This document shows positions 1,023-63,998 of a stretch of 64,000 nt of DNA, in pieces; within the stretch, counting starts at the first letter, position 1, and each line of letters starts with the position of its first letter. Made by a program: the position numbers and the translations under genes. The notes beneath the pieces were generated by a model. That model saw only the letters and a list, made by a program, of their open reading frames with translations, was not told where the DNA came from and did no database searches. Source of the stretch: Desulfatirhabdium butyrativorans DSM 18734 (GTDB lineage Bacteria; Desulfobacterota; Desulfobacteria; Desulfobacterales; Desulfatirhabdiaceae); contig NZ_AUCU01000008.1 of the NCBI RefSeq assembly GCF_000429925.1, positions 62,001 to 126,000 on the forward strand, read 5' to 3'.

Positions 1023-1029
1023 AGGAAGC

Positions 1030-1146
1030 GATTGCAAAAGTTCTTCGGTGTCATTCCGGAGAAGGCCGGAATCCACTCATTTCCAAGCATTATGAACCCC
1101 AGGCCTTCGCCGGGGTGATGGAAAATGGGCGTTTTACAATTGGCTT
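1030..1146. repeat. Dispersed inverted-repeat element, family 1 (copy A)
   Basis: The left end is ATTGCAAAAG and the right end is TTTTACAATTGG. Inside are a GTCATTCCGG block and a CCTTCGCCGGGGTGATG block in opposite orientation. The size and order match the copies at 16758-16876 and 63880-63998. It ends about ten bases before the start codon of the PA14 gene, so that gene's leader is partly repeat-derived. Confidence 0.7.
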
Positions 1147-16713: not shown

Positions 16714-16757
16714 TTAGCACAAATTCATGGTTGTTACACCAAAAAACTTGGAATCGA

Positions 16758-16876
16758 GACAATTGCAAAACCATCGTATTTGGTCACCCCGGCGAAAGCC
16801 GGGGCCCGGAACGTGCTAAAAAGACTGGATTCCGGCTTTCGCCGAAATGGCACAAGAGGACTTTTGCAATTGGCTC
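16758..16876. repeat. Dispersed inverted-repeat element, family 1 (copy B)
   Basis: 119 bp from CAATTGCAAAA to CTTTTGCAATTGGCTC, with opposed internal blocks CACCCCGGCGAAAGCCGGGG and GATTCCGGCTTTCGCCG. This is the best-preserved copy together with the one at 63880-63998. The rest of the gap 16631-17174 shows nothing recognisable. Confidence 0.85.
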
Positions 16877-17174
16877 AATCTTATCGATAAATGTGACAAG
16901 CTCCGATTTGGGCGCTACGGATTTTTCAGTCGAAATCTCATGGCGTCGGAAAATCCGACGGTATCGTTTCTTGTTTTAGACATACGTCTCGATATCCAGC
17001 TTGTGTTTGAGCACGATTTCATTTTGATAGCAAAATGGAGTCGGCAATCGGCAACCCGAAATCCCCGATCAGTAATTGTTGCGGTTCTTCGTTTACGGCA
17101 CACTGAAACGGGTCTACCGGAACCATCGATGTTTCTGAGCCCAAGCCCAAGATCACAGGACATTTTGAGAAAAC

Positions 17175-21280: not shown

Positions 21281-21997
21281 TCATGTGAGCCAATTGCAAA
21301 AGTCCTTCTGCGTCATTCCGGCGAAAGGAGGAGTCTGCCGGGGAAGCGGTCGCAACGGAGCGGCGGTATCCGAACAGGAAATACTTGCCTGGGTTGCAGC
21401 CGCTTTGGCTTCATCCAAAATCTGGATGCCGCCGCGCAGTACGATCACGCCGATGATCGCGCCAATCAGCAGATCCGGATAATTGCTGCCCGTGATCCAG
21501 ACAAGCGAGGCGGAAATCAGCACACCGACATTTGCGATGACATCGTTTTTAGAAAATATCCAGGATGCCCGCATGTGAACCCCGCCGTCTCTGTGCCTGG
21601 CGATCAGTACCAGACAAACCACGTTTGCGGCCAGCGCCGTGACGCTGACCACCATCATGCCGATGCCCACCGGCTCGCTTCCCGTAAAAAAGCGATGCAT
21701 CACCTCCACCAGCACGCCAAGCGCGAGTAGAAACTGCAACACACCTGCCGTCGATGCGGCATCCGCCTGAAGTTTTTTCGATTTGCCGATTGCATAGAGA
21801 GAAATCCCGTACACCCATGCATCGGCAAACATGTCGATCGAATCGGCCACCAATCCCATCGAGTCGAAAAGCCATCCGAAAAGCAATTCCCCAAAAAACA
21901 TCGCTGCGTTAATCCCCAACAGGATCCACAGCGCTTTTCGCTCGATCGATCGACTGGTTTCCACACTGCAGCCACAGCCACACCCGCATCCCGGCAT
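21281..21997 (-). CDS. Cation diffusion facilitator-like transporter with repeat-derived tail
   Basis: A 238-residue integral membrane protein. The N-terminus MPGCGCGCGCS is a Cys-rich metal-binding stretch. Transmembrane segments follow with the CDF-type pairs DSIDMFAD and KNDVIANVG, which bind the transported divalent cation. The usual cytoplasmic C-terminal domain is absent. The last about 20 residues (PPFAGMTQKDFCNWLT) are translated from a family-1 dispersed repeat at 21286-21345, so the original C-terminus was replaced. The start has GGGAG seven bases upstream. It probably exports a heavy metal such as zinc or cadmium; the ion is inferred. Confidence 0.82.
   Translation of the reverse strand: MPGCGCGCGCSVETSRSIERKALWILLGINAAMFFGELLFGWLFDSMGLVADSIDMFADAWVYGISLYAIGKSKKLQADAASTAGVLQFLLALGVLVEVMHRFFTGSEPVGIGMMVVSVTALAANVVCLVLIARHRDGGVHMRASWIFSKNDVIANVGVLISASLVWITGSNYPDLLIGAIIGVIVLRGGIQILDEAKAAATQASISCSDTAAPLRPLPRQTPPFAGMTQKDFCNWLT
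21286..21345. repeat. Dispersed inverted-repeat element, family 1 (copy C, partial)
   Basis: GAGCCAATTGCAAAAGTCC followed by CGTCATTCCGGCGAAAG, the left half of the 119-bp element. It forms the last codons and stop of the cation transporter on the minus strand. Confidence 0.8.
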
Positions 21998-53271: not shown

Positions 53272-54636
53272 ATGTCCGAACCCGGAATGTCTTCCGGCAT
53301 CTGGACGGAAATCGTCTCCTTCTTTTCGTCCGTTCGTCTAACGATCGTGTTGCTGCTGACGCTGGCGGCCACATCCGTCATCGGGACGCTGATCCCGCAG
53401 AATGCCGCGCCAGCCCGCTATTTCATGCAGTACGGCGAGTTCTGGTTCAGAATTTTTTCCGTATTCGATTTTTTCGACATGTACCACTCCTGGTGGTTTC
53501 AGACGATGCTGATCCTGTTGGCGATCAACATCGTGGTCTGCTCCATCCAGCGTCTTCGGGCAACCTGGTCCGTTCTGTTCCCGAAGGAACCAAAAGGAAC
53601 GCCCGATCGTTTCCGGAAAAGCGGATTCCAGGTGGAAAAAATCCTGAACATCGATCCGCCGCAAGCCCGGCAAGCGCTGCTGCATCGGTTGGGAAAGCGC
53701 ACCAGGGAAATATCGGGGGAGGCGGGAACATGGGGAGCTTTCTGGGAATCCGGCAGAAAATCCCGGCTGGGCGTGTATGTCGTTCATCTGAGCGTTGTGC
53801 TTCTGCTGATCGGCGGCCTCATGGGCTCGATGTGGGGATTCGACGGTTCGGTCAGTATCCCGGAGGGCGAGCGTGCCGATACCATCCAGCTGATCGGAAA
53901 AAACATCCAGCATCGTCTGAATTTTGCGATTCGCTGTGATGCGTTCCAGATTCGATTCTACGAAAACGGCATGCCAAGCGAATATCGCTCGACGCTGACG
54001 ATCCTGGAAAACGGTTCCCCGGTGCTGACCCGGGACATCCTCGTCAACGATCCGCTGCAATACAAGGGGGTAACGATCTATCAGGCATCCTATGGTACGG
54101 TTCCTTCCAAAAAGGCGGTTTTCGAGTTTACCAGCAGGGACTCCGGCATGGTGTACCAGCAAGCGGTCGACGTGGGACAAGACATCGTACTGCCGGAAAA
54201 TCTCGGTACCTTTTCCCTGAAGGAGTTCGTTCCCGATTTTCGTTTCAAGGGCCACGACATCGGAGAAACCTTTCTGGCGGTCATTACACCGGAAACGGGG
54301 GCTCCGGTGGAAATCGCGATCCCCGTCCAGTTTCCGAGCTTCGACAAAATGCGGAAAGGGCCTGTATCGGTTTCGGTGGCGGATGTGAAAACGCGTTATG
54401 CCACGGGACTTCAGGTGAGCTACGATCCCGGGGTCTGGGTGGTCTATGCCGGGTTTCTGCTGATGATCGCCGGGTGCTACATCACGTTCTTCCGTTCGCA
54501 TCGCCAGGTCTATGTCGAAATCTCGGGGATCGAAGGCAAAACGAGGATGCAGATATTCGGTATCACCAACAAGAACCGTCTGGGCATGGAAAGATGGCTC
54601 AGGCGTTTTGGCGATCGGATCGCATCCGGGAAATGA
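53272..54636 (+). CDS. resB: Cytochrome c biogenesis protein ResB (Ccs1)
   Basis: A 454-residue System II cytochrome c assembly protein. Several transmembrane segments are visible (FFSSVRLTIVLLLTLAATSVIGTL and SRLGVYVVHLSVVLLLIGGLMG) with a large periplasmic domain (about residues 200-370). The histidine in LGVYVVHLSVV and the loop residues match ResB. With CcsA it moves and attaches haem to apocytochromes, as needed for the multihaem QrcA downstream. AAAGGAAC precedes the start. Its stop codon lies at the start of a family-1 repeat remnant. Confidence 0.92.
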   Translation: MSEPGMSSGIWTEIVSFFSSVRLTIVLLLTLAATSVIGTLIPQNAAPARYFMQYGEFWFRIFSVFDFFDMYHSWWFQTMLILLAINIVVCSIQRLRATWSVLFPKEPKGTPDRFRKSGFQVEKILNIDPPQARQALLHRLGKRTREISGEAGTWGAFWESGRKSRLGVYVVHLSVVLLLIGGLMGSMWGFDGSVSIPEGERADTIQLIGKNIQHRLNFAIRCDAFQIRFYENGMPSEYRSTLTILENGSPVLTRDILVNDPLQYKGVTIYQASYGTVPSKKAVFEFTSRDSGMVYQQAVDVGQDIVLPENLGTFSLKEFVPDFRFKGHDIGETFLAVITPETGAPVEIAIPVQFPSFDKMRKGPVSVSVADVKTRYATGLQVSYDPGVWVVYAGFLLMIAGCYITFFRSHRQVYVEISGIEGKTRMQIFGITNKNRLGMERWLRRFGDRIASGK

Positions 54637-54719
54637 AAGCCGGAACCCAATCTTTTCAGAACGTTCCGCCCCACCGGCTCTTGCCGGGGCGACGAAATAT
54701 GCCGAGTTTGCAATTGGCC
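54634..54719. repeat. Partial family-1 repeat between resB and ccsA (copy D)
   Basis: TGAAAGCCGGAACCC, then CACCGGCTCTTGCCGGGGCGAC and GTTTGCAATTGG, matching the right part of the 119-bp element in diverged form. It carries the resB stop and fills most of the gap before ccsA. Confidence 0.6.
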
Positions 54720-54757
54720 CTACTGAATTCTGTTTTGGTGATCATGCAAGGAGCCCT

Positions 54758-63703: not shown

Positions 63704-63879
63704 AATGGTGGGTGAACCGAACCTCTGGTCTTGTGCTGGACTGGCGAGCGCGCAAGGGCGCAAATATCCCGCTGTTTCGCAAGATTTTCCGTCTGCAGGC
63801 GAGGCGTTGCCTTGAAAGTGGATTTCCGTTCACGCAGGGCGGAGGTGTCGAAAAAGCGCGAAACGGTTTTTGTGATGAA

Positions 63880-63998
63880 CCAATTGAAAAAGTCCTTTTC
63901 CGTCCTTCCGGAATAAGTCGGAATCCAACCTTTTCGCCACATTCTGGAACCCGGCTTTCACCGGCGTGATGAAGCAGGCTGTCCTTGCAATTGGCTCT
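63880..63998. repeat. Dispersed inverted-repeat element, family 1 (copy E)
   Basis: 119 bp from CCAATTGAAAAAGTCC to CTTGCAATTGGCTC, with opposed internal blocks CCTTCCGGAATAAGTCGGAATCC and GGCTTTCACCGGCGTGATG. It is the same size and layout as copy B. The bases 63704-63879 before it hold weak family-2 repeat remnants and no gene. Confidence 0.8.

Follow-up and report, generated by a model that had tools for sequence, protein, structure and literature searches.

A dispersed 121-bp element of Desulfatirhabdium butyrativorans: most probably a MITE of an IS1182-like insertion sequence with a CGTC-1 REP dimer as its core

Results and discussion

Five copies of the element in the window

The window (the whole stretch of 64,000 nucleotides analysed here) is C2:62001-126000 of the 4.48-Mb, 73-contig genome of Desulfatirhabdium butyrativorans. 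An earlier note, made from the letters of the window alone, had described five copies of a dispersed element, and all five were confirmed, three of them full and two partial, with limits a few bases wider than first given once they were set by the terminal repeats. The element is 121 bp long and bounded by GAGCCAATTGCAAAA...TTTTGCAATTGGCTC; as the note had said, its ends are inverted copies of GAGCCAATTGCAAAA and opposed CGGCGAAAGCCGG blocks lie inside. The features are as follows (window positions; the element is named as the putative MITE).

16756..16876, + strand: full MITE copy, 121 bp, limits set by the terminal repeats
16756-16770: terminal inverted repeat (TIR) GAGACAATTGCAAAA of this copy
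about 16783-16806: CGTC-type hairpin of this copy, followed by the spacer
about 16823-16849: opposed hairpin of this copy
16862-16876: second TIR of this copy
16752..16755: target-site duplication AATC, left of this copy
16877..16880: target-site duplication AATC, right of this copy
1025..1146, - strand: full but diverged MITE copy of 122 bp, whose TIRs have 3 and 2 mismatches
63877..63997, - strand: full MITE copy, 121 bp, with the exact duplication TGAT
63873-63876: left TGAT of the 63877-63997 copy; the right TGAT extends past the window end and is taken from locus L347
about 21287-21335, - strand: partial copy, one exact TIR (21287-21301) and one hairpin
54635-54720, - strand: partial copy, one TIR (54706-54720) and the adjoining hairpin

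In BLAST, the copy at 16758-16876 matched each of the other four window copies with E values of 1.2e-9 to 1.3e-15. The 12-base end alone was not above chance in the window (12 matches with at most 2 mismatches versus 8.1 expected; 15 of 100 shuffles were as high). Exact target-site duplications border two of the three full copies, and the flanks of the 1025-1146 copy read AGAG and GGAG, which do not agree exactly. The 121-bp consensus consists of GAGCCAATTGCAAAACC, a few bases, CGTCACCCCGGCGAAAGCCGGGGTCCA, a spacer, TGGATTCCGGCTTTCGCCGGAATGACG, a few bases and GACTTTTGCAATTGGCTC. At its gathering thresholds Rfam gave only a tRNA in the window, which rules out a known structured RNA as the identity of the element.

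Both partial copies lie at gene ends. The one at 21287-21335 reaches into the 3' end of a cation-efflux-family ORF (21281-21997, minus strand), and the one at 54635-54720 starts where a ResB-family ORF (53272-54636, plus strand) ends; thus, the last codons or the stop of these genes may come from the MITE.

Copy number and age of the family

Genome-wide, the 15-base end had 186 matches with at most two mismatches (98+88), versus 3 (1+2) for a reversed-pattern control. Since no copy has more than two ends and a few of the ends belong to the insertion sequence (IS) described below, the genome holds roughly 90 copies or more. The whole-genome count that the earlier note had proposed came out in its favour, and its prediction of many copies was borne out, yet the window is richer than a sample of 12 stretches of 20 kb: five clusters of the terminal repeat (TIR1) were present in its 64 kb, versus two in the 240 kb of the sample, where roughly 10 ends would be expected from the 186.

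A set of 46 end pairs was collected from 438 kb of own-genome stretches, mostly chosen around TIR hits, with pairs up to about 275 bp and at most 3 mismatches per end; it includes one pair that shares its right end with another and leaves out the 63877-63997 copy, which lies at the window end. Twenty-four of these pairs span 118-123 bp, 11 span 133-136 bp and four span 149-150 bp, the rest being 60-64 or 196-258 bp long. The classes of about 121, 135 and 149 bp differ in whether none, one or both of the hairpins have some 14 additional bases. Mean identity to the consensus was 88% among the 24 copies in the 118-123 bp class, with 95% for the closest pair; the family is an aged one.

Some ends continue into other repeats. 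At C16:33527, C19:9285, C37:4576 and C3:140448, TIR1 and part of the hairpin run into GGAGTCAGAAGTCAG-type short-repeat arrays, another dispersed composite family that is joined to the MITE at the hairpin. At C66:77219 and C15:15356, the hairpin core beside TIR1 is replaced by a repeat whose first bases are GTGCCTGAACGGAAAACCCC or nearly so.

Target-site duplications

Target-site duplications, which the earlier note had named as a check, were frequent: 20 of the 46 end pairs had an exact 4-bp duplication, versus 0.40 expected from mismatched flank pairs, and lengths of 3 and 5 occurred once each. When the boundary was shifted one base inwards, only five of the 46 pairs still agreed (6 bp), so that the duplication length is 4 bp. 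C preceded the duplication in 13 of the 20 cases and G followed it in 10, which suggests a target preference. The other 26 pairs had no exact duplication, as would be expected of old copies with a mean of 88% identity to the consensus.

An IS1182-like transposase with the same ends

Two matches to PF01609 were found in the genome. The better one is an intact 363-aa ORF (C67:231063-232151, minus strand) that carries a DDE transposase domain (Pfam DDE_Tnp_1, PF01609, 52 bits, over the cut-off of 23) together with DUF772 (27 bits). On the 3' side of the ORF, the IS closes with GAGCCAATTGCAAAACCTCC at C67:230867. The first 17 bases of this end are those of the left end of the MITE consensus, and in some copies, for example C22:13418, the identity extends to 20 bases. 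The contig stops 66 bp upstream of the transposase start codon. The 5' end, GAGGTAATTGCAAAACCTCC, adjoins an IS copy on C38 (98.8% identical over 341 bp), and the second PF01609 match, on C14, is a truncated IS copy (97.6% identical over 973 bp). No complete IS copy was found in the window's own assembly, C67 being cut at the contig end and C14 truncated, and the 5' end is known from C38 and from G007, a genome of the same family, alone. In G007 there is a complete IS of 1455 bp with both such ends and an ATGT duplication, whose protein is 86% identical. A transposase with the same terminal repeats, as the earlier note had suggested looking for, is thus present as the DDE ORF of this genome and in the complete IS of G007.

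Relatives of the IS in named genomes were taken from the best 80 of 146, with ends chosen without regard to flanks; the nearest named relative in the search was the Desulfobacteraceae MAG DAIEFO01. Both ends and flanks were available for 62 of these relatives, and an exact 4-bp duplication was present in 32 of the 62 (0.41 expected), nine of them from one Lentisphaera genome, six from one Entotheonella and 17 from others. Lentisphaera marina has many related IS copies (16 of the best 80 loci; L180-L193, L195 and L219), and the two whose ends were read closely have an end GAGCCTTTTGCAAAAG.

With regard to family, the transposase, whose named relative is of the ISUnCu17 family (43% amino-acid identity), resembles IS1182 in being of the DDE type and in having several plasmid homologues annotated as IS1182 family; it differs in scoring 85.7 bits with the NCBIfam IS1182 model NF033551, below the cut-off of 270. 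It also fell below the cut-offs of the IS5 models. Given the annotated homologues and the low model score, we call it 'IS1182-like' only.

A CGTC-1 REP dimer between the ends

In the parts of the survey by Di Nocera et al. (2013, PMC3733652) that we draw on, a CGTC-1 REP is described as a CGTC tag, an 8-bp stem, a 4-nt loop and a CCA tail, mostly found as head-to-head (HH) dimers with the tags outside, and the CGTC-1 group includes dRS3 of Neisseria. The consensus core of the element has this anatomy: two head-to-head units with outward tags, each with the tag (CGTC/TGTC), 8-bp stem, 4-nt loop and CCA tail. Many single units depart from it, being degenerate or in part long-loop variants. Among 76 unit strands from 38 dimers, [CT]GTC stood 8 nt before GAAA in 55, at least seven of the eight stem pairs were kept in 29, and the CCA end was present in 27. 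A search for outward-tag pairs alone, which counts this orientation and no other, gave 72 dimers in 678 kb of TIR-enriched sequence: 38 had both TIRs, 20 had one and 14 had none. The proposal that the element is like a MITE or a REP pair therefore holds on both counts, by its ends, duplications and IS on the one hand and by the anatomy of its consensus core on the other.

The earlier note had also proposed a double hairpin. Such a fold is possible, but in the lowest-energy RNA fold a single long fold-back was favoured over two hairpins in all 38 two-ended cores (mean -39.8 versus -23.9 kcal/mol; by more than 5 in 36). The 121-nt strand folds far more strongly than its shuffles (z -6.4 as RNA, -5.1 as DNA), as any near-palindrome would.

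CGTC hairpins also occur apart from the ends. Above a reversed-sequence control, 25 of 34 hairpin units in 304 kb had no TIR1 within 110 bp, and outside the window (240 kb, 12 stretches of 20 kb chosen by position) this was so for 24 of 27. Thus, the IS accounts for only part of the CGTC repeats of the genome. This abundance would also suit a REPIN-like pair spread by a RAYT (Y1 tyrosine transposase), with the CAATTGCAAAAG ends as incidental flanks; the core is a REP dimer, and the genome has six Y1_Tnp matches, some partial. However, the duplications begin just outside the TIRs, and the tag is CGTC instead of the GTAG of REPIN/RAYT systems. Moreover, none of the six Y1_Tnp loci was flanked by the repeats on both sides, with flanks of up to 1.5 kb read (contig ends truncate three of the loci): five had neither a CGTC hairpin nor TIR1, and the sixth had one MITE about 0.5 kb away to one side only. 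RAYT mobilisation of a mere REP pair is not supported by these loci, and we regard it as highly improbable.

A different possibility is that the CGTC dimers are themselves the mobile unit and have inserted into pre-existing solo palindromes of IS ends, in the sense of the 'target palindromes' of Halothiobacillus, a dimer-insertion phrasing used in the cited part of the 2013 paper (PMC3733652). The occurrence of dimers with both, one or neither TIR1 would fit this, as would a 34-bp TIR pair without a core at C6:15644-15677. This pair is one of four very short TIR1 pairs of 34-64 bp (the others being C2:205065-205128, C27:15682-15741 and C16:62771-62833), which look like, and probably are, internal deletion derivatives of the MITE. 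In addition, the core, the spacer and the TIR-adjacent bases are common to the copies, as seen in the consensus, and the 4-bp duplications show that the whole TIR-to-TIR unit moved. We consider insertion of dimers into empty palindromes very unlikely.

On the basis of these observations, the element is, in all likelihood, a non-autonomous transposon (MITE) of the IS1182-like IS that has been spread by the IS machinery and holds a CGTC-1 REP dimer instead of the transposase gene. The DDE transposase of the IS would recognise the terminal repeat GAGCCAATTGCAAAA..., presumably acting on the MITE in trans, and the element would be inserted at a 4-bp staggered cut, giving the 4-bp duplications. The MITE would have retained the IS ends, with the head-to-head dimer standing where the transposase gene was and being carried along as a passenger core. 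We infer that it was the MITE that took up the core, and not the other way round.

Ends and cores in the order

To place the element in a wider context, its ends were searched in 291 genomes of the order. At no more than one mismatch, seven genomes (G000, G010, G078, G097, G201, G218 and G243) had 28-131 ends, the next one having 13. In the last six of these, 32 distinct two-ended elements were read (two loci without a pair and two duplicates being left out), of which 21 had an exact 4-bp duplication and seven (five in G078, two in G201) had cores without CGTC hairpins, both judged by eye. The same ends and duplications around other cores indicate that the hairpins may be dispensable for transposition. 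It should be noted that none of these six end-rich genomes was among the eight of 291 with a match to this IS1182-like transposase at E<=1e-30; their mobiliser is presumably lost, missed or more distant.

A like core was also found between other ends. Our consensus matched G026 DNA at 83% over 72 bp, across both hairpins and the spacer, and CGTC dimers in G016 and G026 were bounded by TTGAYRRNNTCGYAAAAAGTC-type ends in 24 pairs (L133 twice), from loci fetched for their CGTC match (nine of the 29 G016/G026 loci had no pair). With the same ends on other cores and a like core between other ends, ends and core look separable. In our genome the spacer of most end-less dimers is longer, and it recurs in several one-ended copies (by eye), which suggests exchange through the hairpins.

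The TTGAYRRNNTCGYAAAAAGTC-type ends occurred in 234 of the 291 genomes. A single genome has as many as 646 of them, our own has 97, and G001, G016, G026, G088 and G215 are among those with more than 200; a reversed control gave at most 2 per genome. These ends enclose many different cores, for example at L309:163-299, L306:3125-3457 and L315:19374-19691. Among 17 pairs from other genomes taken by the end motif alone, one (L323) had a clear CGTC core by eye; thus, CGTC is one of many cores between these ends. In 53 distinct pairs, the flanks agreed over 2, 4 and 6 bases, with the boundary moving inwards, in 32, 27 and 22 cases (expected 4.2, 0.9 and 0.6). The outermost base belongs to the duplication, since in 16 of the 20 cases in which it departed from T...A it still agreed with the opposite flank at both ends. 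The next base was uninformative in most pairs and agreed in one of three informative pairs. The duplication is thus either 6 bp long or 4 bp long within an ANNNNT target, 4 being as likely. With regard to a transposase, none of 19 PF01609 places in five genomes was bounded by TTGAYRRNNTCGYAAAAAGTC-type ends on both sides, and none of 20 places in 14 genomes for IS1634, a guessed candidate, was so bounded, though two IS1634 loci have such ends as a short pair on one flank.

Taken together, we tentatively propose, as a possibility that falls somewhat short of an even chance, that CGTC-type REP dimers have spread through the order as interchangeable MITE cores. The ends differ (IS1182-like with 4-bp duplications; TTGAYRRNNTCGYAAAAAGTC-type with 4 or 6 bp), hence probably the transposases as well, and cores would have passed from one end type to another, perhaps by way of the hairpins that they share, as the one-ended copies with the spacer of the end-less dimers suggest.

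Comparison with known systems

In the cited parts of the 2013 survey (PMC3733652), CGTC REPs are reported without a dedicated transposase, a broad spectrum of transposases may move them, and their association with other transposase genes nearby is regarded as only fortuitous; the choice between RAYTs and other transposases as movers is left open there. For part of the CGTC REPs the present genome offers a concrete answer, namely a DDE IS and its dimer-carrying MITE, with 4-bp duplications. Should MITE families generally exchange cores, this would also account for the arrival of one hairpin pair in unrelated genomes although it has no enzyme of its own. No link between CGTC REPs and a DDE transposase appeared in the titles or abstract starts among the matches listed, an open-paper search by element sequence found nothing, and a long search phrase, a weak test, gave no later papers naming CGTC-tagged repeats together with MITEs. 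The MITE as such is ordinary; the link between a DDE IS and a CGTC REP dimer is less ordinary, and clear.

As far as the cited parts of the survey describe them (PMC3733652), CGTC-1 HH dimers share with our core the tag, stem, loop, tail and head-to-head order, whereas here the dimer lies inside IS ends with target-site duplications, and the loop region of many units is longer by about 14 bp. The CGTC-1 dimers of Halothiobacillus neapolitanus, which lie in 41-bp palindromes, are similar in being enclosed by an inverted repeat; compared by description only, their palindrome is a different one, and those parts of the paper report no duplication or transposase for them. Finally, the element resembles bacterial MITEs in being short and non-coding, with terminal inverted repeats, a fixed-length target-site duplication (exact 4 bp in 20 of 46), many copies and a matching IS, the candidate autonomous element, with which it shares its ends and duplication length. 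Unlike them, it has a REP dimer as its core, which shows no evident IS remnant and resembles cores that lie between other ends.
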